Below are positions 16,774 through 40,037 of a stretch of DNA of 40,914 bases, in pieces. The translations under genes and the position numbers were made by a program. Position 1 is the stretch's first letter. Every line of letters begins with the position of its first letter. Under the pieces are notes generated by a model, which was not told where the DNA came from, ran no database searches, and worked only from the letters and a program-made list of their open reading frames with translations. Origin of the DNA: an uncultured Bacteroidales bacterium (lineage in GTDB: Bacteria; Bacteroidota; Bacteroidia; Bacteroidales; Paludibacteraceae); contig CADBZO010000014.1 in NCBI GenBank assembly GCA_902799185.1, positions 18,772 to 59,685 on the forward strand. Direction: 5' to 3'.

Positions 16774-19700
16774 TTATTTGATAGCCGTGCCCAGCACGTT
16801 GTAGGCCTTGCCGTCACGGAGGATAAGCAACTGACCGTCACGGAGCACTTTGCGCGCGTCGTTGGACGGAGTAGCCACAGACTCAATACCCTGGGTGAAG
16901 TAGCTCGGATCCTCGTCATAGAGGGTGATATGGTTGGAAGGATTGCCGGAGGCATAGTTGGTGTAGTCTCCCGAACTGCACATCAGCTCCATGAACCGGC
17001 CTACGTACGTCTTACCGTCATCTCCTACGAGACGGAAAGAACCGGTGTAGAACGCTTGGGTGAGGCTATAACCACTCGATATTTCCACCTCGTCATAGCC
17101 GTCAAACTGGAGGCGGACTTCTGACTCTGTACCTTGAACCGTACCGTCACTCAGGTAAATCAAATCGCTCTCGCTATCCAGATTCTGACGAGTCAGGTTA
17201 TAGTTGCCGGAGAGGGCGGCTGCACTATTGGTGTACACCAGGAACCATGCGAACTGGTAGCCGGCATTATCGACTCCGAATTGCAGGATCCAACCGTTCT
17301 TGCCCTCCTGATACCATTTTGTTTTGGGCTCGATATAGTAGGCGTTAAGGCCTATTACATTCAGTTCTACAGCATCTGCAGGAATCTCCGCTGCCTTGGA
17401 CACGAAATCGTTACCGGCAACAGCGTTGGATGCCTCGAAATAGTTGCCGTTAGCGCCTTCGTTGAACGCCTGTACGGTCCAGGACCACGTACCGTCTTTC
17501 GGCATGGTCGTCGTCTTGGTGGTGCCGTTGACGGTCAGCGTGGAGTAGAACTCGCCGTCGCAATAGAGGGTAATCACATAGCGGTCGGCGGCTGTAACGG
17601 CCTCCCACGTGAAGGTCACATTATCGCCGCCTGCTACCTCTGCGTGGAGGTTGGTCGGCTCGTAGTTGTTCACGCCTACGGTGAAGTTAGTAGCCATTTC
17701 CTGACCAAGCGCGTTGTTATATCTATCCACTACCTGCACGATAACGGTGTAGGACTTGCCTTCCACTACATTAACCGTCAGCGGGGAAGCAGGACGGTCT
17801 TTGGTATCGAAGTTGTCGTAAGCGACTGTCTCGCCGGACCAAACGCGAACGTACAGACGCTCACCCTGACCGAACTCAGGATCTACCCAAGTGAGGGTGG
17901 CGGTTTTCTTGTCCTCAGCCACCTCAGCCTTCAAACCGGTTACGTATTTAGCAACGAGTTCAAACGGGATAAGCGCCAGTTGGTCACCCTTCGCATATTT
18001 GCCGTCTTCTCCCTGTACGAGCGCATATACCTGAATCTGATACTTACCCGGAGCCAGACCTAACATGGAGCCTACGTTAATCACGCATTTATTCCATGAA
18101 TCGCCTTTCTGCAAGCCGGCTTCATCGACATTGAGGATCCACTTGGTAGAGCAGTAGTAATGGTTGTCAGAGTCGTCGCCTGCGGGGAAACCGCCGAACT
18201 CGCCGGACTCCATATCCTGATAAGCGAACCGGTCGCACTCTTCGGTAGTAGCGACGGTACCGGCAACCATTGCTTGCGCGTCAGCGTCAAAGAGCGCGAT
18301 AGCGAAAGCGGATGCGTTGTAGGAATACCACATGAACTGCGCCTGGCAGTAGGTCAGCGCATATATATTGGCGTCCGCCAGTTCTTCTTGCGAGGGATCC
18401 ACTTCGCCGGAATGACCGATACCGGCGAGAACAAAGTTATCCAGTGACGCGCTGCCGAAATTGCTGGTACCGCCTGCAAAGCGGAAAGCGATGTACTCTA
18501 CTCCGGCGGGCAGTTCATTCAAGGGGAATACCACATGTTTGTAGTCATCAGTAATAGTCTGCTCAAGCTTCTTCAGGGAGACGAAAGTAGCAGCGTCTGC
18601 GGGGTTGGTCATATAGCCTATTTCCAATACTCCGTAGTCCGCACTAATCACGGAAGTGCAGTAGTCGAACGCCAGTTCGCAGGTGTCGAGTTTGGCGTTG
18701 AAGAGAGGCATTGCAAATACCTGGGCGGAGGTAGCGCCGCCTCCACGGGCGGTGAGATGCTGTTCGCCGGTAGCTATCTGATTGCCGTTGCCGTCATCCT
18801 TTTTCTCCGCTACGATAGTCACAGCGGGGGCTGCGGAGGAAATAGTCCAGCATCCGGGGGCTATGTCGCCGACGGTCTCGCTGCCGGAGGCGTCGCGGGT
18901 GAAAGTCTCAATCCAAGGCACGTTCAGACGGGCGCAAGCGGTTTTGAAGGTAGCTTTTACGGTCTCGCTTACTGCTGTTTCGGAGCAATAGGAGCGTACG
19001 TAGAAATAGTATTTCTGCTCGTCATAGAGACCAGTTACGGTTACAGACTTCTGGTCCGTCACTTTGGCGGCAGTCCAGTCGGGCTGGTCGCCTTCGAATT
19101 CAAGACAGTACTGGTACTGCGAAGCTTCGCCTTGCCACGAAACAGTAGCAGTAGCCTCCGTCACCTTCGATACGGTAACAGCGGTAGGCGCTTTGCAAGT
19201 CTCGCTGACGGGATCGGTATCGCCGCCTGCTATCACGAAAGTGACTTTCGGCTGTTTGTTGACACGTGAAGAGCCACTGTTCGCGTACTTAATCAGGTAA
19301 TCCGAATTCACGGAATAGAAAGAAGAGGCGGAATAGGTTCCTGCCCTCGTGATTTCTACCTGAATAAGCAAGTTTCCGCCCTCATAGGCGTACGGGGTGG
19401 TGAAATTGACGGTCAGCTCCCCGTCTGCTACGGACAGAGTTCCTTCATATACTTCGGTAAGCGCGCTGCCTTCCGACGCGGTCGCATAGGCTCCTGAAGC
19501 ATTCTGGAAATAGGTGAAATCCGTCTTGGTGAGAGATACTTTGAACTCTGCCTTGCCCCAAGACTGGGTTTGGTTGGAGGAGTAGAAGGTCAGCGCCTTG
19601 ATTTCGCTGCCTGCTGTGATGCCTTTAAGTTGGTCTGCCAGATAGATGGCTTGCATCTTTTGTCCCTGAGAATCGGCGTTATCGCCAAAAACAGGGAAAC

Positions 19701-19806
19701 GCCCCTGGGTGGCAGTTCCACCGGGGTTTACAGTGACTGCCTGATCGGCATGGCCGTACGCGCAGAACAAAACTGCCGCGATAATAACAGAAAAGATTTT
19801 TTTCAT
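16774..19806 (-). CDS. Secreted multidomain Fn3/jelly-roll protein (gene A)
   Basis: 1010 residues from the ATG at 19806, which gives signal peptide MKKIFSVIIAAVLFCAYGHA; a longer frame upstream is less likely. In order: an N-terminal beta domain (~25-195) similar to that of gene B (EVYEGTLSVADGELTVNFTTPY); a fibronectin III domain starting at Cys ~203 and ending FKTAC; a jelly-roll/cleaved-adhesin-like domain (~300-460, with PGCWTIS and IAFRFAGGTSNFGSASLDN); a further beta domain; two more Fn3-like domains (TATLTWVDPE, NVTFTWEAVTAADRYVI); and a last beta domain. It ends with the tail VLRDGQLLILRDGKAYNVLG shared with B-G. Probably exported to the surface and involved in adhesion or carbohydrate/protein binding (inference); no catalytic motif was seen. 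It has its own promoter and terminator. Confidence 0.82.
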   Translation of the reverse strand: MKKIFSVIIAAVLFCAYGHADQAVTVNPGGTATQGRFPVFGDNADSQGQKMQAIYLADQLKGITAGSEIKALTFYSSNQTQSWGKAEFKVSLTKTDFTYFQNASGAYATASEGSALTEVYEGTLSVADGELTVNFTTPYAYEGGNLLIQVEITRAGTYSASSFYSVNSDYLIKYANSGSSRVNKQPKVTFVIAGGDTDPVSETCKAPTAVTVSKVTEATATVSWQGEASQYQYCLEFEGDQPDWTAAKVTDQKSVTVTGLYDEQKYYFYVRSYCSETAVSETVKATFKTACARLNVPWIETFTRDASGSETVGDIAPGCWTISSAAPAVTIVAEKKDDGNGNQIATGEQHLTARGGGATSAQVFAMPLFNAKLDTCELAFDYCTSVISADYGVLEIGYMTNPADAATFVSLKKLEQTITDDYKHVVFPLNELPAGVEYIAFRFAGGTSNFGSASLDNFVLAGIGHSGEVDPSQEELADANIYALTYCQAQFMWYSYNASAFAIALFDADAQAMVAGTVATTEECDRFAYQDMESGEFGGFPAGDDSDNHYYCSTKWILNVDEAGLQKGDSWNKCVINVGSMLGLAPGKYQIQVYALVQGEDGKYAKGDQLALIPFELVAKYVTGLKAEVAEDKKTATLTWVDPEFGQGERLYVRVWSGETVAYDNFDTKDRPASPLTVNVVEGKSYTVIVQVVDRYNNALGQEMATNFTVGVNNYEPTNLHAEVAGGDNVTFTWEAVTAADRYVITLYCDGEFYSTLTVNGTTKTTTMPKDGTWSWTVQAFNEGANGNYFEASNAVAGNDFVSKAAEIPADAVELNVIGLNAYYIEPKTKWYQEGKNGWILQFGVDNAGYQFAWFLVYTNSAAALSGNYNLTRQNLDSESDLIYLSDGTVQGTESEVRLQFDGYDEVEISSGYSLTQAFYTGSFRLVGDDGKTYVGRFMELMCSSGDYTNYASGNPSNHITLYDEDPSYFTQGIESVATPSNDARKVLRDGQLLILRDGKAYNVLGTAIK

Positions 19807-19862
19807 TGTAACAAAATATTTTAGTTTGTTTCTTTTGTCTATCAAAAATAACAAAAAGCGTG

Positions 19863-20396: not shown

Positions 20397-23300
20397 TTAT
20401 TGTATTTTATGTCCCTGGAGGTTATACTTCACGCCGTTGCGGATGATAACTACCTGGTTGTTCTCCAATACCTTGAGGCTCTGTACCTGCCCGCCTTGAA
20501 TGTTCTCGCAGCCGGTAGCTATCTGCTCGCCCATCACGATGCGCGCCGGCATACCGTGACGGATAGGAGCATTGCTTGGCTCCGTTCCGACAGGCGTGTT
20601 GGTCTGGAAGTAAGCACGGAAGCTCTTGAGGCTGTGACCGTCATAACCTGACCAAGCGATTTGGTTGTTCGCCAGCATGAAGAGTTTGGTCTTATCATCC
20701 AGCTGGAAGGTATCCGGGGCGAAGATACCGACGAACTTCACATCGTCATTCTCACCGACAGCCTTTCCTTCAAAAGCGGCAATCGTCACACTCGTGAAAA
20801 TCGGATTAACGATATTCTCACCCGCCGTCCAGCTGATGAGGTACGGTACGCCGGCTTCGATAGCGTCAGTAGGATAAACGCGGAGCAGCAGTTCGCCGTT
20901 CTCCACATAGCCGTATTTGAACGCCAGCAGTTCGCCTCCCTCCAGCGGAGTACCATCCAGCGTCGGCAGACCGAACGGCAAGCAGACTGTATTGAAGTAG
21001 CCGTCAGCATAGAAGGTACGGTTAATCTGTATATCAAGGGTCTGACCATTGTTAGCCTCCAAAGCATCGGTGTTATCCTCATCGTTTGCCATAACGAGGG
21101 TGTTGGATACACGGATGTTATCCAAGTACAGATTGCCTTCACCAGTGTTGCCAATGAAGCGGAAAGCGATGTTACCGCTACCGGCGGTGAACGGAACAAG
21201 CACTTGGGTGGTAGAAGCAGCCGTCAGTGCCTCGCTTACAGCCACGAAGGAATTCTTATCCTCTGCATCGGTTACATAACCTACCTGAAGCGTACCATTA
21301 GAAGTACTATAGTCGAAGGCAACAGATGCGCCTACGAAAGAAGCTTCCAATTCCGGCAGAACAATTACCGTAGCATTGGTCTTCGGAGCATCTGCACGCA
21401 GCTGTCCGTTAGCTACATATGCGCTATAGTAAGTAGCGGCATAAACATTCCAGCACTCCGGCATATCGTAGTCTGCTACAGCGTCGAAGTCCTCATCGAA
21501 CGGCAGCGCCGCAGCAGCGCACTTGGTAGTGAAGGAAGTCTTAACGGCATCGCTCTGATCCTCGGTGTCGCAATACGAACGTACGTAGAAGTCGTAAGCG
21601 GTTGTCGGAACAAGAGTTGTCAGCGTAGCGGACAGTTCGTCTGTCAGCGTAGCAGCAGTCCAATCCGGGGTCTCGCCGGCGGGTACACATACATACTGGT
21701 ACTGGGTCTCACCCTTGCCGGAGGCCGTCCAAGCGACTGTTGCGCTGTTAGCGGTAATAGCCGAAGCAGCGATAGAAGCAGGCTTGAAGCAAGTCGGGGT
21801 CTTTTTAACCACCACATTATCCACATATCCGGAAGCATAGTTGCTGGTGGAGCTATAGCGGATAGCGAGGTATTTCGCCTCAGCCGGGATAGAAACCAAG
21901 TCGAGTTCGTACGGCTCTGCGCCAAATGCGGTGAGTGTAGGCAGAGTCTCCAGAGCTACAAAAGTAACACCGTCAGCCTTTACATAACCCAACTGGAAGT
22001 TAGCACTACCGCCCTTGTAGTAGAGCGAGAAGGTGAGGGTGCTCAGGTCTGCGGTGAGAGCGGGCAGAACAGCTATCTGCTCAGCGCTACCATAGAAGTA
22101 GAGGAACTTGCCTGTACCTCCGTATGCAGCCGCACCGCTGTAAACATACGGATAGTCGGTAGCAGAAATCTTGCTCCAGCAAGCCGGCATCTCTTCGGAC
22201 TCCTCGGCATCGAAGTTGTTGCTATACGGCAGTTCGTCGGTAGCAGCACAACGGGTAGTGAAGGTGAGCGAGTTAGACCAAGCCTCATCATCGCCGGCAG
22301 CACACTCTACTTGAACCTGTACGTTATACGAAGTCGATGCCTCCAGACCGGTGAGCAGATACGAGGTGCCGGTAACGGCAACGGTATTCCATGTGCTTGC
22401 ACCTACCGCCTGATAGCGCAGTGCCTTGGCATTGCCCGTCCAAGAGATTGTACCGCCGTCGATGGTCGGCGCAGCCGTCGGAGCTGCCAATGCCTCACAA
22501 GGTTTAGCAATAACCTGTACGTCATCCAAATAAGCATAGCTACTTGTAGAGTTGCCAGTGCTACTTACAAAATAGAGGATAACGGTCTCACCTGTGTAGT
22601 CTGACAAGTCTATGGTCTTGACAGTCCAAGAAGTAACTTTGGTGGACAAATCGTTAGGGAGCAAAGTCTTGGTAGCACCACCGTTAGTAGAAATATATAC
22701 ATTTGCATTTATTTTAGTAGAACTTCCATTCTTCCAATTAAACTTGAGAACGGCATCCTCAGACAAGTTGATAGACGGAGTGCTCAACGTGTAACTGTTT
22801 GAAGAACCACGGAGACGGATATAGTAGTTGTATCCTCCACTAACATATTCGCTGTACGGACTCCAACTATATGTTCCGGTAGCGGACCTATCCCAGCAAT
22901 CAGGCAGGACAGAACTGCTGCTAAAGTTCTCCTCAAACGGCATTGCACTTACGCCGCAAGGTGTAGTAAATTCACCTACTGAGCTCCAGTCGCTTACATC
23001 TTCAGAACCGCAGATAGCTTTCACGCGTACATAGTAGGTCGTTGTAGCAGTAAGAGAAGTCAAAGTATAAGAGGCTGCATCTACAGCAATTTCTTCGCTC
23101 CAATCACCACCTTCCGCCTTGTATTGCAGTTTCCAAGCACTCTCGCTTCCGCCTGCCGTCCAAGTAACTACTGCGCTGTTAGCAGTGAGACTTGCCGTAG
23201 CAGCAGCCGGTTTGCCCGGTTTCATACAAGAAGGAGCTTCTTCTACTACGAGATTATCTACATATGCCGATCCGTAGTCTGATGTTCCGTTTGCATAACG

Positions 23301-27459: not shown

Positions 27460-29334
27460 ATGAAAAAGATTTTTACAATTTTGTGCGCGGCGGTGATAGC
27501 CGCAAGCGCCGTGAACGCCGAAGTGCTGCTGACTGAGCACTTTGCACAAACCACTGAGACATTAGCAACGAACGAAAATGCTTTCGGTGATGAAATTGCA
27601 GCTACCGGTTGGACTAACATTAGTGGAGGTGGTAATATTTTTCTAAGTGCCAGTGATTTGACATATGCAGGATATAAGACTAATTCAGATGGTACTCGTT
27701 CGGCTGAACTTCAATCAGGCAAAGTCAAGAAAGTCGCAGTTCCTCTATCCAAATCCGTTAATTCGGGTTCAGTGTATGTTGCAGCAATTGTAGATTTGCA
27801 GGCATATGCATCTACTTCTGCAACTGCAAACACGCGTGATTACTTATGGGCATTAGTGAATGGAACATCTTCTGTATCAACTGCCGGAAACCATTTCGCT
27901 CGTTTACAACTACAAAAGGTGGGAGATGGTAAATTCCAATTCAGTATAGCCAAGAGTACAGAATCTGCTGCGTTTATCCCTTACACAGACACTCTGGAAT
28001 TATCCAAATACTTGGTAGTGACAGAATATCAATTTGTTGATGGAGAGCAAAACGATATAGTTCGCTTGTTTGTAAATCCTACTAAAGGAGATAAACCGAA
28101 GGCAACCGTAGAGTGCTATCAATCATTTATCAATCCCAATACAAGTGCTGATGTTGGAGCAGGAACAAAGGCAGATGCTGCACAATTGAAGAGCCTGTTG
28201 TTGAACGCAAGTTCTACAATGAAATTAGGTGCATTGATTGACGAGCTGAAGGTAGCCACCACGTGGGCTGACCTGTGGGAGAGCGGCGACGCGCCGGTAG
28301 TGGAGACACCGACGATGGTTGTGGAAGATGCAATCAATTTCTATGAGGAAGATTTGTATAATAATATGTATATCTTCACCGTATTCCCCGGCAAGCAGTA
28401 TTCAAAAGAATTAGAAGTGCTGGCAGAGAATCTGACCGAGGATATTACTATTTCGCACAAAAATAGCGAGCTTACACTTAGTACTTCGACAATTGACAAA
28501 GCCGGTGGTAAATTCACGGTAACATTGAATCCTGAAGCGGCAGGAAGCCATGTAGATACGATTGTCTATACAAGCGGTTCGCTGAGTGACACCACTCTTG
28601 TAGCCTGGGGAGTTAATCTGCAATCGTATTCCGATTTGGCATCGCTGAAAGCCGCCTATGCCAATGATGATGAATATGGTTTTTATCATTTCAGAGGCGA
28701 GGCTGTTATCACCCGCGCATACAGCGGTTTTGCATACATCCAAGATGAAACAGCCGCATTGCGTTTGAGCAATGAGTGGAACCAAGATACCGATTTTGCA
28801 TCGTTAGCAGTAGGTGACAAGATTGGCGGTTTCATCGGTTATGCCGGAGAAACAGATGGAGCAGGCGTAAAAGACTTTATCATCGGTCAGGATGTCACAC
28901 CTCTTTCGCAAGGCAATACGGTAGATGCACAAGTAGTGACTTTAGCGGAATTGCAGACCAACGGAGCGGATTATTTGTTAGAGATAGTAACGATAGAGGA
29001 TGCAGAACTTGACCAAACGGCAGAAGTATTCCCCGCAGCGACCAAGGTAAGTTTCACGCAAAACGGCAAGTCTGCCAGTATCCAGGCTATCAACTCTTCT
29101 GCAGATTATATAGGCGAGGCTATTCCCGCCAGGGCGAATATCACCGGTTTCAGTATCAACCAGAGCGGAACGGTGATTGTTCCCCGTGCCAAGAGTGATA
29201 TTGTCTCCAAAGACACTCCTTCTGCCATTGACCATCTGCGTGTAAAAGGCAAGGCGGTGAAGACCGTACGGGACGGACAGATTGTCATTCTCCGGGACGG
29301 AAAAGCCTTCAACGTATTAGGAAGCGAGTTATAG
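27460..29334 (+). CDS. Secreted OB-/Ig-like domain protein with shared tail (gene C)
   Basis: 624 residues; signal peptide MKKIFTILCAAVIAASAVNA. Residues ~22-275 form a beta-rich, jelly-roll-like domain (LLTEHFAQTTETLA..GWTNISGGG). Residues ~290-385 form an Ig-like domain (LEVLAENLTEDITISHKNSE) also found in gene D. Residues ~395-500 resemble a secreted OB-fold (YHFRGEAVITRAYSGFAYIQ, ALRLSNEW), as in DUF5689/YhcR-type proteins. It ends with the shared tail TVRDGQIVILRDGKAFNVLG. The first ~260 codons are AT-rich and the base composition changes sharply near 28250. Gene D follows after a palindrome and a heptamer array, so C and D are probably one transcript. No enzymatic residues were recognised. 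Confidence 0.78.
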   Translation: MKKIFTILCAAVIAASAVNAEVLLTEHFAQTTETLATNENAFGDEIAATGWTNISGGGNIFLSASDLTYAGYKTNSDGTRSAELQSGKVKKVAVPLSKSVNSGSVYVAAIVDLQAYASTSATANTRDYLWALVNGTSSVSTAGNHFARLQLQKVGDGKFQFSIAKSTESAAFIPYTDTLELSKYLVVTEYQFVDGEQNDIVRLFVNPTKGDKPKATVECYQSFINPNTSADVGAGTKADAAQLKSLLLNASSTMKLGALIDELKVATTWADLWESGDAPVVETPTMVVEDAINFYEEDLYNNMYIFTVFPGKQYSKELEVLAENLTEDITISHKNSELTLSTSTIDKAGGKFTVTLNPEAAGSHVDTIVYTSGSLSDTTLVAWGVNLQSYSDLASLKAAYANDDEYGFYHFRGEAVITRAYSGFAYIQDETAALRLSNEWNQDTDFASLAVGDKIGGFIGYAGETDGAGVKDFIIGQDVTPLSQGNTVDAQVVTLAELQTNGADYLLEIVTIEDAELDQTAEVFPAATKVSFTQNGKSASIQAINSSADYIGEAIPARANITGFSINQSGTVIVPRAKSDIVSKDTPSAIDHLRVKGKAVKTVRDGQIVILRDGKAFNVLGSEL

Positions 29335-29371: not shown

Positions 29372-29399
29372 ATTTGAGATTTGTAATAGGAGATTTATG
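29372..29399. repeat. Heptamer array (ATTTGAG-like) running into the gene D start
   Basis: Four 7-bp units: ATTTGAG, ATTTGTA, ATAGGAG, ATTTATG. The last contains the ATG start codon of gene D, so the array is in phase with translation initiation. Confidence 0.7.
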
Positions 29400-31649
29400 A
29401 TTAAACAGCGTATTTTTATGGCTATGCTGGCAGGTGCACTCGTCATGGGTGCACCTGTATCAGCAGAAGAGACGTCCGGCAATCTGATTCAGAACCCGGG
29501 GTTTGAGAGTTACGAGGACAAGAGCAATGCCCTCTTTGGCGACTACACGGAGTTTGCGTCATGGGTCTGCTCGGGTTTCGGCTGCGTGTCGGAGAAGACG
29601 GATGTGTATGAGGGTGCCGCAGCGATGAAGTTAGGCGGCAGCACCCCCATGACGGTCTATCAGCAGATAACCGGTCTGACGGACGCCGCATACGACGCGG
29701 ACGTGCCGTTCCGGCTGACGGTTCACTACAAGGCGAAGAAGATCGCCTCGGGCGGAAAAGTTTCGCTGGACGCCTATTGGGAGCACGCGACGACAGCCGA
29801 CGGGCTGAAGACCCACGATGCAGCCAAGCTGCAGCGGGTGCTGAGCGACAGCGTGCAGAGCGAGTGGCAGACATTGGTCATAGAGACCACGAGACCGGCG
29901 CAAGCGAAGTCCTTCATGCTGCAGTTCAAAGCCACCGCCAAGAGCTACGTGCTGATCGACTCGCTCGGTTTTGAGGCGCTGCCTACGACAGCTCCGGACG
30001 AGCCGTATATCACGGTAACGCCCAAGAGCCTCTCCTCCGTGAGCTGCGAGAAAGGGCAGAGCGTGACCTTCCCCACCCTCCATATCGAGCAAGGTAACAT
30101 CACCGGCACGACGACGTTTGAGTTGAGTTATACCGACGCGGACCAGTTCCGTCTGTCGCGCAGTTCGATGAGCGCGGACGAGAGCGCGTGTGACCTTATT
30201 ATCACCTACGCGCCCACGAAAGCGGGCACGCACAAGGCCGTGCTGAATATCGACAACACCAGCCACACGTCTCTGTTCCAGTCCATCACGCTCAACGCCA
30301 GCTGCACCGACCCGGACGCCAAGCCTATGATCACCGTGACACCGAGTGTGATACCCACCTTCGAGACGGTAGCGGGCAAGCAGGTGAGCGGTAAGTTCTC
30401 CGTCAAAAGCGAGAACTGCACGGATTTCGTCTATCTGAGTGTGAGCCACGTACAAGGCCAGGCGTTCACCATCGTAGAGAGCATGCTCGCCAAGAACTAC
30501 GAGACGGAAGTGACGGTCTATTTCACGCCGCTGGAGGCTGGTACGTACCAATCGACGGTGACGCTGACGAGCGAAGGGGCGACGCCGGTCGTAGTGACGC
30601 TGAACGGCACGGCATCCGCGAAGAGCGAAGAGACCATCGACTGGCAGACAGCGTTCTCATGGGACACCTCCCATCCGTACGCCCTGTTGGAAGAAGATTT
30701 CGAGAGCGGCAAGCATAACGAGACGCTGGTGTTAACAGACTGGCAGAACGTAGCACCGTTAGAGGCGCGTCCGTGGTGGGGCTACGACGAGAGCCGCGCC
30801 ACACCTCCGCGCGCAGACAACCGTTGCGCCAAAGCCACGGCGTACCAGTACGGCAAGGATTCCACGGACATCTGGGAGGCATGGCTGGTGACGCCGGCGC
30901 TGGACTACAAGAACGCCCGAGGAAGGGTGTTCACGTTCGATGTGATGGCAGAGTACCTGCCGGAAGACGGAAGCAACACCACTTTCGAGGTGTATTTCAT
31001 CGACCCGAGCGACCCCGAGCATATCTATTTCCAGGACCTGAGCGGTTCGTTTGCCATCCCCGCCACGGGTGACGAGAACGAAGAATGGCGCACGTTCCAC
31101 CTGAACCTGAACAACCAGCCGAACATCCCCGACGTGTTCTTCATGGCTTTCCGCTATGCGGGTCCGAACGGCGGCATGGGCGTTGTGACCTATTACATAG
31201 ACAATGTCAGCTGGGGCCGCACCGACCTGCCGACCATCACTCCGAGCGTGACGATGCTCATCGACTCGCTCGCCGTAGTGAACGTATCACGCGAGATAGG
31301 CACTATCACCGTCACCGGCGAGAACCTGACGGAAGACATCTCATTAGAGGTAGGCGGCAACCGCTACACCGATTTCAGCCTGAGCAAGAGCACCCTGCCG
31401 AAGGAAGGAGGCAAAGTGACTGTCACGTTCGAGAGCGACTTAGAGGGCGTACATGACGCGTATGTGCATTTGAGTTCCAAAGGGGCAGCCGACGTGTTCA
31501 TCCCGATGGCGGTGCTGTGCCGTGCGGCGCAAGGCAACCTCTCCCCGACCCTCCCCTCAAGGGAGGGAGTAAAGATACTGCGGGACGGCAAACTCTATAT
31601 TATGTACAAAGGGACGATGTACGACGTGCTGGGTGCGCGAGTTGAGTAA
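29397..31649 (+). CDS. Secreted multi-Ig/jelly-roll protein with shared tail (gene D)
   Basis: 750 residues; signal peptide MIKQRIFMAMLAGALVMGAPVSA. An N-terminal carbohydrate-binding-like jelly roll (~25-200) opens NLIQNPGFESYED. Two or three Ig-like beta domains follow (~200-410; repeated TVTPS and VTLNGTA). Then comes a choice-of-anchor/jelly-roll domain (~425-610; YALLEEDFESGKHNETL, FFMAFRYAGPNGGMGVVTYY) and an Ig-like domain (~615-710) close to that of gene C (ITVTGENLTEDISLEVGG). The C-terminus is the PTLPSREG linker, encoded by palindrome P4, followed by tail ILRDGKLYIMYKGTMYDVLG. Likely a surface-exposed binding protein; no catalytic motif seen. GC-rich throughout, unlike the first part of gene C. 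Confidence 0.8.
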   Translation: MIKQRIFMAMLAGALVMGAPVSAEETSGNLIQNPGFESYEDKSNALFGDYTEFASWVCSGFGCVSEKTDVYEGAAAMKLGGSTPMTVYQQITGLTDAAYDADVPFRLTVHYKAKKIASGGKVSLDAYWEHATTADGLKTHDAAKLQRVLSDSVQSEWQTLVIETTRPAQAKSFMLQFKATAKSYVLIDSLGFEALPTTAPDEPYITVTPKSLSSVSCEKGQSVTFPTLHIEQGNITGTTTFELSYTDADQFRLSRSSMSADESACDLIITYAPTKAGTHKAVLNIDNTSHTSLFQSITLNASCTDPDAKPMITVTPSVIPTFETVAGKQVSGKFSVKSENCTDFVYLSVSHVQGQAFTIVESMLAKNYETEVTVYFTPLEAGTYQSTVTLTSEGATPVVVTLNGTASAKSEETIDWQTAFSWDTSHPYALLEEDFESGKHNETLVLTDWQNVAPLEARPWWGYDESRATPPRADNRCAKATAYQYGKDSTDIWEAWLVTPALDYKNARGRVFTFDVMAEYLPEDGSNTTFEVYFIDPSDPEHIYFQDLSGSFAIPATGDENEEWRTFHLNLNNQPNIPDVFFMAFRYAGPNGGMGVVTYYIDNVSWGRTDLPTITPSVTMLIDSLAVVNVSREIGTITVTGENLTEDISLEVGGNRYTDFSLSKSTLPKEGGKVTVTFESDLEGVHDAYVHLSSKGAADVFIPMAVLCRAAQGNLSPTLPSREGVKILRDGKLYIMYKGTMYDVLGARVE
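31541..31633 (+). repeat. Palindrome-tail DNA cassette, copy in gene D (P4)
   Basis: Stem CCCTCCC (31549-31555) and GGGAGGG (31561-31567), loop CTCAA, in frame as PTLPSREG, continuing directly into tail-coding DNA. Over ~92 bp it differs from the gene G copy (39929-40020) at about ten positions by eye. Confidence 0.8.
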
Positions 31650-32029: not shown

Positions 32030-35000
32030 ATGAAAAACGTAGTTAATTATATTCTTTCGGCACAGAAAAAGATATTTGCTCTGGCGTTCCTCGCCGTTTT
32101 TTCGTCGTTCTATACGATGGTTTGGGGAGATACTGACTACTCTCGGGATGGAATTACTGCCACTTATTCGGGAACTGTATTAACTATATCTGCGGGATCC
32201 ACAGGTGTTATGCCCAATTATAAGTATAATGGAACTGTTTCACAAGCGACTCCTTGGAATGCAGCTATAGCAGCTATTACAGAGGTAGTAATAAATGAAG
32301 GTATCACATATATCGGTAAAGATGCCTTTCGGGGAGCGTCCAAATTAGCAAAAATCACTCTCCCCACCTCCCTAGATAGTGTTGGAGAAAATGCATTCTA
32401 TGGATGTTTAAAAATGGCTAATATATACTACAAAGGAACACCTGCACAATGGGCAAGTGTCGGCTTCTATGGTCAAAAAAGTCATCCATTTGGTGCGTCA
32501 ACATCATCTCCTCGTAATTATTACTTTTACGGACTTACCTCCACTAACACTATTATTTTCATAGAGCCTGAAATAACTACTATCAAAAAGTGGACATTCT
32601 ATGGCGCTACCAATTTTGAAAGTGTCTGTATTCCAGGTACTGTATCTTATATCGGCACACATGCATTTGATTGTACAATCAGCACATCTATTTTGGTAAA
32701 CCGAAGTACTGCGCCCGGAACTGGTACAAATGCTATCACTGCATCCTCAAAGGCCTTATACGTTCCTAAGACTAACTCTGGTTACGGTGTTACTCCTTGG
32801 AGCAATCAAACAAAAAAAACATGTTCAACAAGTGGTACAAATACAATTGATGAAACTACTTTAGAGTGGAATCTAAATGAGGAAGGTGTGTTAACCATAA
32901 ATGCTACTGCTGGTACTAAAGCGCTCACTTTTAACTTAGCAGGTGCAGACTACCCTTGGACGGACTTCAGACGTATGGTTTACAAGACTACTATTCAAGG
33001 AGAATTAACCGCATTAGGAAGTCTTTTAAAATGGCATTACGGCATTTCAGAAGTAATATTGGACCAAAATACGATTCCGACCATCAGTAGTACATATATC
33101 GGAGGAACATCTTATGCCTCCCTATTCAACAAACGCGATACATTAACACTCACCATTACGGATCCGGCATCGCGATTAGATGCAAGTTGGAGCAGATTAT
33201 TAGATGAGGCTCCTTGGAATGACGATGCCCACTGGAAAATCGTATATCCAACTACAACGGTTACTTTATCCAAAGGCACTGAGACGAATGGTACATTTAC
33301 TTTATCGTCGTCGTCATTGAACACAACAAGTTCAGCACAAACGGTTAGTGTGACTTGTACCCCAAATGACGGCTATGTTACCTCATCGGTTAGTGCAACT
33401 AACCCTGCTATACTCTTAGATGATATTACATATGCCGGTTCTGACAATGAACGCACAGTAACCTATCCCGCTTATACACATGGCAGTTCGACTATTAGTG
33501 TGGATTTCGAGTGCGCGAAACCAACGATTAGCACAGACTTAAGCACAGAAGAAGTGGAATATGAGCAAAATGCTGTAGCTTCTGCTTTATCGGTGACCGC
33601 AGACGCTAATAGTGGCGACTTGTCTTATCAGTGGCAGAGCAGTTCGGACAATAGTAGCTGGTCGGATATTGACGGTGCTAACGTAGCATCTTTTACACCT
33701 CCTACTACTGAAACAGGAACAAGGTATTATCGTTGTATCGTAACAAACACTACTGATGACTGTGAAGAGTCTGAAACTTCTAACGCTGCACAAATCACCG
33801 TAACCGCTCCATCTTCTTCCGCTTGGAGTTTGCATTACGGTACAGATGGACAAAGTGATTGGACAACCGTTGACTTCTCGCAAGTAGGGTCAACTAACGA
33901 ATGGCAAATAGAGGACATTGTTATTCCCAATAAGCCCAACTGGTATGTGGATAATGCCGCAGGCAATGATGCGAAGAAGAAATTAAGCACTTGGGGTGAC
34001 TTGTATTTTGCAGCATCACAGGGAGATGGCACGCGACCAATGGTCGGAAATGCAGTAGGTGCTGTAGGTACAGTGCGCATCTATGACGATAGCAACTGGA
34101 ATAACCGCTATGCAGGATTTATTCCGAACGGCTATGTACTGAAGATTGGTAGTAATGAATATTCCTTTGCTTCAGAGGATGGTAATGAATATCGCTCAGA
34201 GATCATCGAATATTCCGGCTCCAATGCACGCGATAATGTGAGTGTCGGAATTGTGGATGAGAATGGAGATTTCGTTAGTACCAATAACACCTCAGAAATG
34301 CAGCATATATTCCTTCATGTAGGAAATAATACTACGCTATGGGGTAAAGACGGAGTCACAAATTTTGGTTTATATGATGACACCGAAGGTCATAAGAACT
34401 TTACTTGTTTAATGACCGCTGTTCCCGGAGAAAATTACCTATATGAAGGATGGGTTCCATCTACTTGTACTAATGTTATTTTCTGTCGTTTAAAGAGTTC
34501 TACTTTGGATTGGGGTACAGATAATAATAACGTACATAACTGGACTAATAGTTTAGTCCTTCAAGACAATCAAAATCTTTGGACTGTAACCGGCTGGAAT
34601 GGCGGTGATGGTAATTGGTCCGCATATACACAAAAAGGAAGATTCTGTATTTGGCAAGATAAAACCGTAAAGAACTGGGGTGTTTGTTTCCGTCCGTGCT
34701 ATGAGTTTAACGCCACAGAAAATGCCAATTGGAATAATGCGAACAACTGGAAACCGCAAAGCGTGCCTACCATTGATTTTGATGTCTTCCTCAACAAGCC
34801 GGTCACGGTTAATGTTACTACAGCTCAAGCGAAAAGTGTCGTCATCAACCAAGAAGGAGACAAGACCGGACAATTGGTTGTCGATGCCGGACAGAAACTC
34901 ATTGTAGCAGGAAGTATCCAAAAGACAACTAACGGAGAGACATACTCTGCGACAGAAGCGAATGACATTATCATCCATTCCGATGCGACTAACGGGTTAG

Positions 35001-36220
35001 GCGCGTTGGTAATGGGTACGCACGATGGAACGAACCAAGCCACTGTTAACTTTACCACCTTATCCAACGGAACAAGCGAAGACAACACGTCCATCGCCCA
35101 ATATGTCGGAACACCCTTTAACGATGAGACGAATATCCTACATAACTGGTACAACTCATGGGTCTATGGTATCGACCATACCGGAGGTATCATAGGCTGG
35201 GAGCGCGTTAATGAGGGACAAGGAATGGCACCCTTCAAGGGATACTGCGTCTTCTCTGCCGATGGAACCCATCATAACTACTGGCAGCAGGGCACACTCA
35301 TTGCTTCTGAAAACCAGACCATTAGCGGTCTCAACTGGCAAAGCGGCGGTACAGCGAACCCCAACAACGAGAACCTGCTGGCGAACTCGTGGATGGCGCC
35401 TATCAAGATAAGTACGATGGAGACATCCGACTTCACCAATACGGAAGCGACGATTTATATCTTCAATTCCACCAGCGCGAGCGCCTATACAAGCCTTGCA
35501 AGCAATTATAGTTCCTACACCCCCGGAACAGCCGGAGACGCTATCATCCCAGCTATGCAGTCCTTCTCGGTGTTTACGAATGCTGCAGGCGGTTCCAGCG
35601 TAACTTTGGATTACAACAAAATCGTTTATCAACCCGCCTTAAGCGGAACTGTTCCGGGACCGAATAGTGCACCGCGTCGCGTGGTTGCCGAAGAGGCGAA
35701 CAAGATCCGACTCTTCGTGCATGCAGAGAGCGGATACGGAGACCAGCTGTATATGTGGGAGCGAAGCGACTTCAGCGAAGCGTTTGAAAATGGATGGGAT
35801 GGACACAAACTGTTTGGCGAATCCGTCGCACCGCAGCTCTTTGCTCTTAGTCCGGACGGTGACCTTGCGATTAACTGTATCCCTACTTTCGAAGGCGTAC
35901 AGATGGGCTTCAAAGCCGGAGAACAAGATAATAGTTACACCTTCACCTTCGAGTACAGCGACGAAGCGCAGCCCCTCTACCTGCTGGATATAAACACCAA
36001 CACGTACACGCAGATCACAAGCGATACTTCCTATTCGTTCACCACAACGGATACCGACGTACATAACCGCTTTGTGTTAACCTACAACGCTCCGAGCACA
36101 CCTACTGCGCTCGAAACCACTCCTGCCGTTACCACCGGCAAGAAAGTGATGTATGATAACCATTTATTCATCCTTCATAACGGACGTATCTTCAGCGCCC
36201 AAGGAGCGATGATCCAATAA
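32030..36220 (+). CDS. Giant secreted BspA-like LRR/Ig protein with shared tail (gene E)
   Basis: 1396 residues. The export signal has an extended N-region, with hydrophobic core FALAFLAVFSSFYTMVWG. BspA/LRR_5-type leucine-rich repeats cover ~70-230 (ITEVVINEGITYIGKDAF, KITLPTSLDSVGENAFYGC, CIPGTVSYIGTHAFDC). More beta repeats follow, then an Ig-like domain (~500-590; LSYQWQSSSDNSSW, TRYYRCIVTNTTDDC), a long central region with a beta-solenoid-like stretch (~900-1000; NWNNANNWKPQSVP), a terminal beta domain, and tail VMYDNHLFILHNGRIFSAQG. BspA-type proteins mediate adhesion to host matrix or other bacteria. The first ~900 codons are AT-rich and the last ~400 GC-rich, which suggests mosaic assembly. 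It leads an operon with the 100-residue protein, F and G. Confidence 0.82.
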   Translation: MKNVVNYILSAQKKIFALAFLAVFSSFYTMVWGDTDYSRDGITATYSGTVLTISAGSTGVMPNYKYNGTVSQATPWNAAIAAITEVVINEGITYIGKDAFRGASKLAKITLPTSLDSVGENAFYGCLKMANIYYKGTPAQWASVGFYGQKSHPFGASTSSPRNYYFYGLTSTNTIIFIEPEITTIKKWTFYGATNFESVCIPGTVSYIGTHAFDCTISTSILVNRSTAPGTGTNAITASSKALYVPKTNSGYGVTPWSNQTKKTCSTSGTNTIDETTLEWNLNEEGVLTINATAGTKALTFNLAGADYPWTDFRRMVYKTTIQGELTALGSLLKWHYGISEVILDQNTIPTISSTYIGGTSYASLFNKRDTLTLTITDPASRLDASWSRLLDEAPWNDDAHWKIVYPTTTVTLSKGTETNGTFTLSSSSLNTTSSAQTVSVTCTPNDGYVTSSVSATNPAILLDDITYAGSDNERTVTYPAYTHGSSTISVDFECAKPTISTDLSTEEVEYEQNAVASALSVTADANSGDLSYQWQSSSDNSSWSDIDGANVASFTPPTTETGTRYYRCIVTNTTDDCEESETSNAAQITVTAPSSSAWSLHYGTDGQSDWTTVDFSQVGSTNEWQIEDIVIPNKPNWYVDNAAGNDAKKKLSTWGDLYFAASQGDGTRPMVGNAVGAVGTVRIYDDSNWNNRYAGFIPNGYVLKIGSNEYSFASEDGNEYRSEIIEYSGSNARDNVSVGIVDENGDFVSTNNTSEMQHIFLHVGNNTTLWGKDGVTNFGLYDDTEGHKNFTCLMTAVPGENYLYEGWVPSTCTNVIFCRLKSSTLDWGTDNNNVHNWTNSLVLQDNQNLWTVTGWNGGDGNWSAYTQKGRFCIWQDKTVKNWGVCFRPCYEFNATENANWNNANNWKPQSVPTIDFDVFLNKPVTVNVTTAQAKSVVINQEGDKTGQLVVDAGQKLIVAGSIQKTTNGETYSATEANDIIIHSDATNGLGALVMGTHDGTNQATVNFTTLSNGTSEDNTSIAQYVGTPFNDETNILHNWYNSWVYGIDHTGGIIGWERVNEGQGMAPFKGYCVFSADGTHHNYWQQGTLIASENQTISGLNWQSGGTANPNNENLLANSWMAPIKISTMETSDFTNTEATIYIFNSTSASAYTSLASNYSSYTPGTAGDAIIPAMQSFSVFTNAAGGSSVTLDYNKIVYQPALSGTVPGPNSAPRRVVAEEANKIRLFVHAESGYGDQLYMWERSDFSEAFENGWDGHKLFGESVAPQLFALSPDGDLAINCIPTFEGVQMGFKAGEQDNSYTFTFEYSDEAQPLYLLDINTNTYTQITSDTSYSFTTTDTDVHNRFVLTYNAPSTPTALETTPAVTTGKKVMYDNHLFILHNGRIFSAQGAMIQ

Positions 36221-36232: not shown

Positions 36233-36535
36233 ATGAACGAGAATAATACTTATCCGCTGGCCTCCATCCCGACTATCGGGTTCCAATCGACCAGTTCCAT
36301 GCATGGCTCCGGTAGCATGTATGCCTCAGCCCCTACCATCGGAACCGATGGAATGGCATCGACCTCTTCAACCACCGGGACTGTTGCTTCCGGTCCGCGA
36401 CGCATTGCGCCTCCGACACCAACCGGTAACCCTACCCCCGTCGGTGACGCCGCATGGCCATTCCTTTTTATGGCACTCCTATACACCCTCCGGCTTATCA
36501 AAAAGTTTAACATACAAAAAAACAAAAAACAATGA
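36233..36535 (+). CDS. 100-residue Pro/Ser/Thr-rich protein with C-terminal membrane segment
   Basis: No classical signal peptide. The N-terminal half is low-complexity (GFQSTSSMHGSGSMYAS), then SGPRRIAPPTPTGNPTPVGD, then a hydrophobic helix (AAWPFLFMALLYTLRLI) and a basic end (KKFNIQKNKKQ). The order F-x-S-T-S, P-R-R-I, P-x-G-D-A-x-W-P, TM helix, basic tail recurs in small Bacteroidales proteins next to large exported proteins. It may act as a membrane-bound partner of the neighbouring secreted proteins (inference). It starts 12 bp after gene E, and its stop overlaps gene F's ATG (ATGA), so it is translationally coupled. Function is unknown. Confidence 0.75.
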   Translation: MNENNTYPLASIPTIGFQSTSSMHGSGSMYASAPTIGTDGMASTSSTTGTVASGPRRIAPPTPTGNPTPVGDAAWPFLFMALLYTLRLIKKFNIQKNKKQ

Positions 36536-38040
36536 AGAAAGTATTTATGTTATTAGCGCTTTGTGCGCTGACGATGGTGAGCAGTCAAGCTGCTTATCGT
36601 GTGTACTTGTGCGGTATCACCGAGTTGACGGTGGATACCTTCCAGAGTACGACAAAGAACCAATTTACTCTTACTTTTGACCAGAAATGCAAGAATACGG
36701 CGGAGTACGGCAAACCGACCACCTATTACACATCAACCGTGAAATTGGTGCTTAACTCGGACGACCGCACTCTGGAAGGAACGTACACCACCCAAGGCGC
36801 AAGTCCTACCAGCAGCAGTGCAAACGTAAACGACCAGACCATCAACCTCGTTACATCTGAATTCACCTCCGGTTCAACGAGTCGTCTGCTCCGTAAAGAC
36901 AGTATCTCTACTTTCACTATTGAAAAAGTGGACGAGACCCATTACGCTATCACGACAGGTGATTTGTATTTTTCCAAGCGTTTAGACCAGACCACAGACA
37001 CCTGGGAGTACCTTTACAGTTACGACGCGGAACATATATTGGAGCAAGGCATTAGCCAGACACCATTCGTCTTCGGCTACACCGGCGAGTACGTGACCGC
37101 CGTTTATAACTACGACATGACGGTAAACGGCGTGAACGTGACCCGCGACGACAGCGAATATGGCGCCATCCGTTATTTTCTGACGCTGAGTTGCTCGGGT
37201 ACTTGCCGCGAGAACAACGATGTGCGCAACTACGAGGTACAGCTGGCTATCTATCCGTCGGCAGAGAACATCGCCGGCACGTATGCCACCCAAGGCAACA
37301 GCAGCCTGCTGTATGCGCCCAACTGCTATGTCAAGGACTTGAAAATCAGCAAGCAGCGCAACCTGGCGAATGACTCACTGAGCAGCGTGATGATCAAAGA
37401 CAAGGGCAACAAACAGTACAGTTTTTACGGCGGTACACTCATCTGTACCGATCAAGACGCCAACTACAGCGCCGTTTACGGCAAGAAACGTATCGAGGCG
37501 GTACACTACTACCATTTCTCCGACAACGGCGGCGAGGGTATCTCTTTCGGCTACGACGAGGAGAACAAGACGGTAGAGCTGACGCCGAGCAAGGTGAGTG
37601 TAGATGAGACGACCGAAGGCGGCGAGACGACCGGTTACAGTCTGACCGTGAATGCCACCTCCGAGGGAATCAACTATACCGTGCTGCTCGACATAGAGAG
37701 CGCAACGCTCGCCGGCACGCACAGCGCAAACAGCACGCTGAGCACCTGGAGCAAAGTAGAGCGTGGCAGCAGTTCGTCCTATATCAACTCGGGTTCGACG
37801 GTGACCATCAACGCCAAGAGCGGCAACACCTATACCCTCTCCGGCAGTCTGCTATGCGAGAACGGATACACCTATGTCCTCAAAGCCTTTGATTTCAACT
37901 ACGGCAACAGCACCACGACGGGAATAGAGAACCCCTCCCCGGCCCTCCCCACAAGGGAGGGAGTAAAGATACTCCGGGACGGCAAACTCTATCTGATGTA
38001 CAAAGGGACGATGTACAATATACAGGGGAAGAGGATTTGA
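36532..38040 (+). CDS. Secreted three-repeat beta protein with shared tail (gene F)
   Basis: 502 residues; signal peptide MKKVFMLLALCALTMVSSQA. Three ~150-residue repeats follow (about 20-175, 176-335, 336-470), each with an x-[LI]-x-G-T-[YH]-x-T strand-turn (LEGTYTTQG, IAGTYATQG, LAGTHSANS) and a later G-x-L-x-C/G-x-L-x-F strand (GDLYFS, GGTLICTD, GSLLCENG). Gene G has the same repeat family. The C-terminus is NPSPALPTREG, encoded by palindrome P6, plus tail ILRDGKLYLMYKGTMYNIQG. Fold and function are not recognised; a secreted binding protein is likely. It is coupled to the preceding 100-residue gene by a 4-bp overlap. Confidence 0.78.
   Translation: MKKVFMLLALCALTMVSSQAAYRVYLCGITELTVDTFQSTTKNQFTLTFDQKCKNTAEYGKPTTYYTSTVKLVLNSDDRTLEGTYTTQGASPTSSSANVNDQTINLVTSEFTSGSTSRLLRKDSISTFTIEKVDETHYAITTGDLYFSKRLDQTTDTWEYLYSYDAEHILEQGISQTPFVFGYTGEYVTAVYNYDMTVNGVNVTRDDSEYGAIRYFLTLSCSGTCRENNDVRNYEVQLAIYPSAENIAGTYATQGNSSLLYAPNCYVKDLKISKQRNLANDSLSSVMIKDKGNKQYSFYGGTLICTDQDANYSAVYGKKRIEAVHYYHFSDNGGEGISFGYDEENKTVELTPSKVSVDETTEGGETTGYSLTVNATSEGINYTVLLDIESATLAGTHSANSTLSTWSKVERGSSSSYINSGSTVTINAKSGNTYTLSGSLLCENGYTYVLKAFDFNYGNSTTTGIENPSPALPTREGVKILRDGKLYLMYKGTMYNIQGKRI
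37931..38025 (+). repeat. Palindrome-tail DNA cassette, copy in gene F (P6)
   Basis: Stem CCCTCCC (37943-37949) and GGGAGGG (37955-37961), loop CACAA as in intergenic copy P1. It is read in frame and joined to tail DNA closely matching the copies in D and G. Confidence 0.8.
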
Positions 38041-38041
38041 G

Positions 38042-38077
38042 GACACCCCCCAGCCCCCTCTCAGAGGGGGAGAAGGG
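38042..38077. repeat. Palindromic repeat, copy P7
   Basis: Right after gene F's stop; nearly identical to P3 (ACACCCCCCAG lead, CCCCTC-TCA-GAGGGG, GGAGAAGGG). It shares P3's position between two secreted-protein genes. Confidence 0.8.
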
Positions 38078-38126
38078 ATTTGACATTTGACATTTGACAT
38101 TTGAGATTTGAGATTTATAATTGATG
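38078..38126. repeat. Heptamer array (ATTTGAC/ATTTGAG) running into the gene G start
   Basis: Seven 7-bp units: three ATTTGAC, two ATTTGAG, ATTTATA, and ATTGATG, which contains gene G's ATG (38124). Confidence 0.88.
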
Positions 38127-40037
38127 AGACGAATAGTATTAACCTTTATCCTGATGGCAGCGGCGGTTCTGCCGGCTGCAGCGGCTTATGAGCTGACCGC
38201 CACCAAGGTGACGGTGCAGGACCTGACGGTGGACAAGTATAATTTCTTCGTCACCGTAGAGGCCGCGACCTCCACCGGCGAGTACGAGATAGCTTTCGAC
38301 GTATGGCCCGCCACGCGTTCCGCCATCGGTACGTTCTCGGCTGCGGACAAGACGATCGGTTACGTGAGCAGTTATGTCCATAAGACGAAGGCGAACGGCA
38401 ATGCCGTAGATATGTGGTACAGCTGCAACGAGGACGCCGCTATCAGCCTCAGCATCGTCCGCAAGGACGAGAGCACGTGCACGCTGAGCGGTTCTATCCA
38501 GGCTACCCGGAGCGGGATGACATACACCTACAACATCCGGGCTTTCGATTTCGCGTACACCGAAGGCGCCGTAGAGCCGGAGCCGGAGAAAGACCCGTTC
38601 CGTTTCGAGCCGGCGGAAGCAACGAATATCCGGTTCCAGGCGGATGTCATTCATTTCCGGCAACGGGAAGGGTATATCGAGGTGACGCTCAATGAGATGG
38701 CTAACGAGACATACGACTGGGTGGAACTGCGGTTGCTGTCCGACACGATGGCCATGCCCGCCGGCACCTATCCGATTGACGAGAGCGGGACCAAAGGTTC
38801 GCTGACCGCCTCCAAGGGGTATTTAGGCAGCGTCAAAGGCGACGACCCGTGCTACGTAGCCATCCGCGGCAGCAAAGAGGAATGGGGACAGTACACGCCT
38901 TATTACCTGGCGAGCGGCAGTCTGGAGGTAAGCTATAACACCAAGGGCGACAGCATCCGTATCAGCGGCAGCGCGACGTCCCATAACGGCACCACCGTCG
39001 CCATTGACGCCAAGAGCTATAACATGCTCTACGTGCAAGAAGAGACACCCAAAGAGCCCGAACACGTGACGTTAGGCATCGACACCGTAGCTATCACCTA
39101 CCTGTCCAACGAGTCCGACAGCGCGAACAACCGATTCGTTTATGTCTTCAATTTCAGCCGTTCGGACGACTACCCCACCGTACTGACGGACGTGGTGCTG
39201 TCCAAGCCGATGGAGATAGTGGCTGGCTGTTACAGTCTGGCGGACGGCAGTCTGAAAGGATCGCAGCTGGCACAGAACCAGGAAGATTTCAACATGAACC
39301 TCTATACCGGTTCCGCCTATGCGTTCACCGCCGCGTCGCTGACGCTGACGGAAGGGGCTAACGGCGAATGGCAGTACACGATGCATATGGAGGACGCTAT
39401 CGGCAGCACGTATGATTTCTCTTTCAGCCAGACGCCGCATATCACGCTTTACCCGCAGCCGGCGGTAGATCCCAAGGACGCGCCGTACACCGACGAGCAG
39501 CGTGAGAAAGCTGTCGTGACGGCAGTGCTGGACACTCTGGTATGGGACAGCAAGACCGTAGCCAAAGACGGCGTGATAGATATCTACCTGACCCAGCGTC
39601 ATGCCGACGTGAACGGCCTGCGGGCATATCTGCATTTAGGCATGTACAGTCAGGAGGCATACCCGGAGGCGGGTATCTATCCGGTGAACGGCAGCGAAGA
39701 GGCAGGTACGTTCAGCGCTTCCTTGGGCCGCTACGGCAACGTGCTGATACCCTGCTATGCAGCGCTGATGGACAACGATGGATGGACACACGCCATATGG
39801 TATATCACAGGCGGAGAAATCAGCCTGAGTTATGACACGAAAGGCCAGCCTGCGCTTTCCGGCGAATGCAGCACCTATTTCGGCTCGACCATCCGGTTCT
39901 CCTATCAACCAAAAGCACAAGGAAACCCCTCCCCGGTCCTCCCTTCAAGGGAGGGAGTGAAGATCCTGCGGGACGGCAAACTCTATATTATGTACAAAGG
40001 GACGATGTACAATGTACAAGGGGCAAATGTGCACTAA
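38124..40037 (+). CDS. Secreted four-repeat beta protein with shared tail (gene G)
   Basis: 637 residues from the ATG at 38124 (a TTG codon just before it is not needed); signal peptide MRRIVLTFILMAAAVLPAAA. Four ~135-150-residue repeats of the gene F family follow, marked by AIGTFSAAD, PAGTYPIDESGTKGSL, VAGCYSLADGSLKGS and EAGIYPVNGSEEAGTFSAS. In repeats 2 and 4 the pattern continues GxxGxVxxxxPCYxA. The C-terminus is NPSPVLPSREG, encoded by palindrome P8, and tail ILRDGKLYIMYKGTMYNVQG. It is GC-rich, last gene of the E-100aa-F-G operon, and is followed by a terminator. Probably surface-located; function unknown. Confidence 0.78.
   Translation: MRRIVLTFILMAAAVLPAAAAYELTATKVTVQDLTVDKYNFFVTVEAATSTGEYEIAFDVWPATRSAIGTFSAADKTIGYVSSYVHKTKANGNAVDMWYSCNEDAAISLSIVRKDESTCTLSGSIQATRSGMTYTYNIRAFDFAYTEGAVEPEPEKDPFRFEPAEATNIRFQADVIHFRQREGYIEVTLNEMANETYDWVELRLLSDTMAMPAGTYPIDESGTKGSLTASKGYLGSVKGDDPCYVAIRGSKEEWGQYTPYYLASGSLEVSYNTKGDSIRISGSATSHNGTTVAIDAKSYNMLYVQEETPKEPEHVTLGIDTVAITYLSNESDSANNRFVYVFNFSRSDDYPTVLTDVVLSKPMEIVAGCYSLADGSLKGSQLAQNQEDFNMNLYTGSAYAFTAASLTLTEGANGEWQYTMHMEDAIGSTYDFSFSQTPHITLYPQPAVDPKDAPYTDEQREKAVVTAVLDTLVWDSKTVAKDGVIDIYLTQRHADVNGLRAYLHLGMYSQEAYPEAGIYPVNGSEEAGTFSASLGRYGNVLIPCYAALMDNDGWTHAIWYITGGEISLSYDTKGQPALSGECSTYFGSTIRFSYQPKAQGNPSPVLPSREGVKILRDGKLYIMYKGTMYNVQGANVH
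39929..40021 (+). repeat. Palindrome-tail DNA cassette, copy in gene G (P8)
   Basis: Stem TCCTCCC (39937-39943, one G-T) with GGGAGGG (39949-39955), loop TTCAA, in frame, continuing into tail DNA. Its last 31 bp resemble the glgP leader segment at 10892-10922. Confidence 0.8.

Follow-up and report, generated by a model that had tools for sequence, protein, structure and literature searches.

A short C-terminal tail of secreted proteins in an uncultured Paludibacteraceae bacterium as a candidate minimal type IX sorting domain

A tail of about 25 residues closes seven proteins encoded in a 40,914-nucleotide stretch of DNA (hereafter the window; G000:C14:18772-59685) from an uncultured Bacteroidales bacterium of the family Paludibacteraceae, and comparative evidence suggests that it is a minimal sorting domain of the type IX secretion system (T9SS), which probably replaced the full type A C-terminal domain (CTD). 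The window belongs to a draft genome of 2.43 Mb, referred to as G000; other G numbers denote sampled genomes and L numbers fetched loci. Judged by the Tgt protein, the closest record is the metagenome-assembled genome (MAG) RUG12032 (98%), followed by uncultured Bacteroidales and Paludibacteraceae MAGs, many of which have ruminant-sample names.

Seven genes of the window and their common tail

All seven open reading frames (ORFs) close exactly at the C-terminus with a 31-residue tail, which confirms the original prediction that seven secreted proteins of the window share a tail of about 25 residues. On the minus strand, the tail (31 residues plus stop codon) occupies 16774..16869 in gene 16774-19806, whose 1010-residue product has an Fn3-containing body, and 20397..20492 in gene 20397-25397, whose 1666-residue product contains five Fn3 stretches and a MAM / choice-of-anchor J domain. 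On the plus strand, it occupies 29239..29334 in gene 27460-29334 (624 residues), 31554..31649 in gene 29397-31649 (750 residues, with choice-of-anchor D-like and J domains), 36125..36220 in gene 32030-36220 (1396 residues, with BspA-type leucine-rich repeats), 37945..38040 in gene 36532-38040 (502 residues) and 39942..40037 in gene 38124-40037 (637 residues).

In a leave-one-out comparison, a profile built from six tails was searched for the seventh, with 200 shuffles per tail as the control. Each held-out tail was found at the C-terminus with 10.2-60.8 bits, above every shuffle (best shuffles 3.6-8.0 bits); the weakest were those of 32030-36220 (10.2 bits, i-E 0.02) and 20397-25397 (13.8 bits, i-E 0.002). 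Chance resemblance of the tails is ruled out by these held-out profiles and shuffles. The motif originally proposed describes the tails in general but is slightly too strict, with 36532-38040 having L for the conserved I and 27460-29334 having I at the position given as [LV], and 3-4 residues follow the last G in the seven tails, where 2-4 had been given. None of the seven proteins matched TIGR04183, PF18962 or other Pfam and NCBIfam tail models at E<=1.

The bodies had been described as unrelated, which is mostly but not wholly right, since three pairs share some similarity: the first and second window genes (31% identity over 491 residues), the third and fourth (41% over 58 residues) and the sixth and seventh (28% over 132 residues, a pair absent at E 1e-3 in a larger comparison). 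In RUG12032 (L174), the ortholog of 16774-19806 is 92% identical and keeps the tail; the tail of 20397-25397 is also kept there, with a best body alignment of 41% over 1297 columns. A gene for a YhcG / DUF1016 PDDEXK nuclease (25434-26609, minus strand) lies amid the tail-protein cluster.

Tail proteins and type IX machinery across genome, genus and family

The tail is not peculiar to the window cluster. The seven-tail profile gave 147 matches in G000 at E<=10, 69 of them below 1e-3 (manual count), and the fetched regions of G000, which leave out many short partial matches in short, dispersed-repeat-like frames, contain 90 distinct matches at E<=0.5 (91 rows, with one gene repeated in an overlapping locus). 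Six matches were dropped, namely a contig-end truncation (C47), a 12-column partial match near a frame end (C32:23169) and four partial matches, and the 84 accepted proteins end in the tail. C-terminal position was part of the acceptance rule, and the exceptions to it are the four partial matches, which lie more than 13 residues from the frame end and each span just 9-16 of the 31 model columns, in a part common to a dispersed DNA repeat; the mid-protein matches that would have counted against a sorting signal are limited to these four.

Among the 84 tails, K (83/83), the last G (84/84) and Y or F (84/84) are invariant, whilst the first G is found in 76/84 and I in 75/84. By a simple hydrophobicity rule, signal-peptide-like starts are present in 72 of the 80 tail proteins with a complete 5' frame and absent from all six window housekeeping proteins compared; of the eight misses, two are masked at the N-terminus, and in most of the rest a hydrophobic stretch that escaped the rule is visible by eye. 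The expected association with signal peptides, and not with cytoplasmic proteins, is borne out for most of the tail proteins.

The distribution was followed in 295 genomes spread evenly over the order (tail threshold E<=1e-3) and in 200 genomes of the family, of which 35 belong to the genus and 165 do not. In the order sample the tail occurs in 10/295 genomes, of which two belong to the genus, one lies elsewhere in the family and seven come from other families; this makes 8/293 outside the genus. In the family sample it occurs in 67/200: all 35 genus genomes, each of which has 9 or more matches (40 or more in 27/35), and 32/165 others, with 1-13 copies. The tail is thus near-confined to one genus. 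It lies within 8 residues of the stop codon in all 57 loci from the order and family searches. Loci around tgt were compared in 80 named relatives. Tail-ending ORFs, with the tail within 4 residues of the end, number 33 and come from 23 of the 44 loci L174-L217; the remaining 36 (L218-L253), which are mostly records of Prevotellaceae and Bacteroidaceae, have none.

Co-occurrence with T9SS genes, proposed earlier as a check, holds within the genus: SprA is present in 35/35 genus genomes (193/200 in the family sample), the PorV family has two copies in each of the 14 genus genomes tested, and G000 encodes PorU (1039.7 bits; cut-off 420), whose gene adjoins one PorV-family gene. The PorV of G000 is encoded at G000:C19:13897-14949. 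It fails in three tail-bearing genomes of other genera, which have no SprA match. Seven other genomes have 2-3 PorV-family copies, and no additional PorV-family gene able to serve the short tail was found in these or in the 14 genus genomes. Over the order, SprA accompanies the tail in 10/10 genomes, a co-occurrence without power because the T9SS is present in 277/295. In G000, SprA is split into two overlapping frames (G000:C8:90734-93346 and 93300-98015, minus strand), either by an assembly error or by a real frameshift; it is a single frame in G245 and many relatives.

Full type A CTDs were counted at E<=1e-4 in the same 200 family genomes. In 31 of the 35 genus genomes they number 3-12, beside 30 or more tails, and the tail outnumbers the full domain in 31/35. 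G392, G402, G453 and G476 have 21 to at least 27 and are regarded as transitional; many genomes of other genera of the family have at least 27. When the genus genomes are divided at 50 tail candidates (a post hoc cut), at least 21 full domains occur in four of the seven below that number and in 0/28 of those at or above it. The exchange of tail and type A CTD shows between genera and in the four transitional genomes. G000 itself has 84 tail proteins and nine places above the TIGR04183 cut-off; of 17 type A places 15 were inspected, and none of their proteins is among the 84, one being PorU.

Two further C-termini of G000 were noted. The protein at G000:C22:9490-10431 (L113) ends in a short CTD of ~48 residues with motifs B, D and E, resembling that of Prevotella intermedia, so both short forms may coexist in this genome. 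The open frame G000:C1:125134-129816 (minus strand; L112) has a C-terminal type-A-like match below the cut-off, and its start presumably resembles a Ham1/RdgB-type pyrophosphatase, which suggests a fusion of frames or another gene that starts earlier.

Ortholog swap, local similarity and spread of the tail

The bodies of G000 tail proteins, with the tails removed, were compared with classified ORFs of G392 (44 full, 9 short) and G453 (29 full, 16 short); the comparison covers ORFs classed as full or short in the fetched regions (53 and 45, respectively), so that orthologs with neither ending would escape it. Of the nine reciprocal best pairs with G392, eight partners carry a full type A CTD and one the tail; of the seven with G453, four carry a full CTD and three the tail. 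The 12 swapped pairs among these 16 represent nine distinct G000 proteins, including a 2207-residue frame with 40% identity over 2044 columns. Two are encoded by neighbouring window genes: the reciprocal best hits in G392 of 27460-29334 (L269:334-3174, 27% over 616 columns) and 29397-31649 (L269:3178-5529, 38% over 686 columns) both carry a full type A CTD and are likewise neighbours. The swap rules out that the tail is an invariable element of the body fold. As these orthologs carry a type A CTD in its place, the tail occupies the site of the T9SS address label, which favours a condensed T9SS signal over a separate one. The replacement would most simply have run from type A domain to tail, because type A domains outnumber tails in most genomes of other genera.

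For a comparison of the sequences themselves, a CTD model of the genus was built from 84 full domains (73 of G392 and G453, 11 of G000), and the tail alignment comprised 58 distinct rows of 61 representatives. Against this model 45/58 tails reach at least 2 bits, compared with 6.2% of shuffles; all 45 fall on its N-terminal half, and most stop where the YDxxGRxV stretch (motif B) ends. HH-suite aligned tail and CTD over 12 columns with an E of 2e-4 and a probability of 47. With the motif-B part removed, 45/58 tails still score at least 0 bits (26.5% of shuffles), 30 of them just before motif B, 12 in the C-terminal half and 3 between. For the tail alone, AlphaFold2 predicts three strands with a pLDDT of 89.5.

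A cleavage-like site of the form [GAST][IVL][ED][NEDSTHQ] stands at most 30 residues before the tail in 45/84 proteins, compared with 6/84 and 5/84 in two upstream control bands, and 37 of these 45 sites lie 12-15 residues before the invariant K. At the DNA level, tails or linkers match between genes in 251 pairs (E<=1e-4). In 213 of these pairs, which involve 65 genes, the bodies show no similarity at E<=1e-3; two window genes, for example, match at 93% over 87 bases. Some of these matches will stem from protein conservation alone, but those of 90-93% that include the linker hardly so. The pattern suggests that tail and linker have been copied between genes by recombination, as a cassette.

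Repeats are found at several junctions. In the window, a palindromic CCCTCCCC..AAGGGAGGG element lies within the gene at the body/tail junction at 31549..31568 and again at 37943..37961, and a similar imperfect element, outside the CCCTC..GAGGG pattern match, at 39937..39955. The TGTACAATGTACAA repeat falls within tail codons (the MYNVQ part) at 40006..40019 on the plus strand. The dispersed repeat ATGTACAAAGGGACAATGTACAATGTACAA occurs at 10892-10920 (plus strand) and 40006-40019 of the window and in L091, L057, L068 and L052, is also found outside tail genes, and encodes part of the linker (DNVQCT) or of the tail (MYKGTMYNVQ) in ~15 tail genes; many of the short-frame profile matches resemble this repeat. 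TGTACA occurs two or more times in the last 240 bases of 15/84 tail genes and the CCCTC..GAGGG pattern in 5/84; both elements also lie at tail junctions, and TGTACA also outside tail genes. The junction repeats may be recombination sites or merely tolerated inserts.

Interpretation and comparison with known sorting signals

The ortholog swap, the local similarity to the CTD and the retained T9SS genes support the idea, raised in the original prediction, of a sorting signal that is perhaps a condensed T9SS signal. We put at roughly 78% the probability that the tail took the place of the type A domain as a minimal T9SS sorting domain. The route that we infer for recognition, export, cleavage and spread would begin with Sec export via the N-terminal signal peptide and folding in the periplasm, where the ~25-residue, three-stranded C-terminal unit would be exposed behind a short linker. 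The T9SS, most likely PorV/SprA, would read this unit through its YNxxG turn and terminal basic residue; a B-like turn directly followed by a terminal basic residue might merge two needs. The protein would then pass through SprA, PorU would cut at the (G/A/S)-I-E-like site, usually 12-15 residues before the tail, and the body would be released or joined to surface glycan. From gene to gene, the label would have spread by recombination as a small tail-plus-linker DNA cassette. A more specific proposal, which we regard as tentative and on balance doubtful, is that a T9SS signal made from the supposedly dispensable half of the CTD, which reaches motif B but lacks the D-E end that is considered essential, became the main export label of the genus, spread as a mobile tail-plus-linker cassette whose junctions often have dispersed repeats.

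Several observations weigh against the reading as a minimal T9SS domain. Reversed tails, the second control, reach 2 bits in 13/58 cases, above shuffles. When the 12 ortholog pairs were aligned singly (by eye), YxxxG fell on motif B in six, elsewhere or out of register in three, and best on the D-E end in three. Taken together, the B-like end of the tail is well supported, but not the ancestry of its first hairpin; descent of the tail from the first half of the CTD is likely on the sequence comparisons. The tail lacks a recognisable D-E end, and in Porphyromonas gingivalis, according to the available text of PMC10202324, that end is required and, for HBP35, the 22 C-terminal residues comprising D and E are sufficient. 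In the last 300 residues of the first window protein, AlphaFold2 gives the same three strands with low confidence (pLDDT 46.5, tail below 50). As to distribution, 14/165 family genomes outside the genus have 12 or fewer type A CTDs (manual count), and the rank correlation between tail candidates and CTD number within the genus is not significant (rho -0.29, p 0.09). The tail-bearing genomes without a SprA match are G323, G372 and G415. In G323, two PorV-family genes are present alongside nine tails and 21 type A domains; since the PorV-family genes are kept, draft-assembly gaps are likely, and its missing SprA is probably one.

That the tail might be no more than a diverged form of the short CTD published for P. 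intermedia, which has a cleavage site followed by motifs B, D and E and forms three strands, seems unlikely to us. The points in favour are similar spans from cleavage-like site to end and three predicted strands in both (PMC11969387, available text), a similar GI(E)-like site and the three ortholog pairs that align to the D-E end. In the tail, however, YNxxG comes last and no GxY-I...K end follows, whereas in P. intermedia, as far as the available text describes it, motif B precedes D and E. Searched against 28 CTD-bearing loci of Hoylesella loescheii, several with short B-D-E forms by eye, the tail profile reached a best E of 1.3, the top two matches lying on motif B. Moreover, a model from P. 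gingivalis and Tannerella forsythia found most P. intermedia CTDs (PMC11969387, available text), whilst the seven window proteins miss TIGR04183.

A separate, T9SS-independent signal for sorting, retention or processing, with bodies that switched pathway on losing the type A CTD, would account for the different sequence, the absence of the end needed in P. gingivalis and the three genomes in which SprA was not detected. It would also require dozens of cargo proteins per genome to be rerouted while SprA stays in every genus genome, 31 of them with only 3-12 type A domains, and it sits poorly with a local resemblance to the type A CTD that exceeds shuffles and with the PorU-site-like motif before the tail; we consider it improbable. 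Hardly credible is a functionless, decaying remnant of the type A CTD: the tail does resemble the first half of that domain, but K, G and Y/F are invariant over 84 proteins, tails are common to different genes at the DNA level, and in three of the four ortholog pairs with tails on both sides they are more conserved than the bodies (20/25, 20/24 and 17/24 against 59%, 38% and 34%; the fourth is reversed, 6/23 against 46%). Codon changes in a tail relative to RUG12032 (one synonymous and one not, in 25 codons) are too few to tell.

If the tail is a minimal T9SS domain, cargo prediction by TIGR04183, the basis on which one rumen T9SS study listed its cargo (PMC5831590, available text), would miss most exported proteins of these rumen bacteria. 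The tail would rank among the smallest T9SS address labels and provide a natural dissection of the part of the CTD that is read by the machine, with a replacement traceable gene by gene in the transitional genomes, and a label of ~25 residues would be a handy tag for surface display or secretion. CTDs are to some extent specific to their species (PMC11285876, available text). No report of such a tail was found among the titles and abstract openings of open-licence papers.

Among known signals, the T9SS type B domain (the model of which we take to be TIGR04131) is likewise a C-terminal T9SS signal of Bacteroidota, and none of the seven window proteins matches it at E<=1 (NCBIfam). With the type A CTD (TIGR04183 / PF18962), the tail has in common its place at the extreme C-terminus, the signal peptide, a T9SS-encoding genome, the same cargo bodies and local similarity near motif B. 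It differs in having 25-31 residues instead of ~70 and three predicted strands instead of seven, and in place of motifs B, D and E in order on a seven-stranded sandwich only a B-like end is recognisable.

For P. intermedia, the available text of PMC11969387 (Ye et al. 2025) describes short and long CTDs, both of them cleaved, together with glycosylation at the C-terminus and models in which the short CTDs bind PorV as the long ones do, and names the species as the only one reported with both forms; as these short signals are already published, the tail is not the first short T9SS signal. The two are alike in that both are short signals in genomes that also have long ones, with a three-stranded predicted unit, dozens of cargo proteins and a cleavage-like GI site, here resembling the consensus PT/GI given there. 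The P. intermedia form, on that account, is 43-55 residues long, with the cleavage site followed by B, D and E in turn, compared with a ~25-residue core ending B-like here and about 38 residues from the putative GI(E) site to the end where such a site is present (45/84 proteins). There, D (GxY-I) and E (basic, C-terminal) follow B; here, the last G stands 3-4 residues from the end, yet three ortholog pairs align to D-E. The tail differs from the P. intermedia signal in being shorter, in ending at a B-like motif and in being the main form, the majority, in most sampled genomes of its genus.

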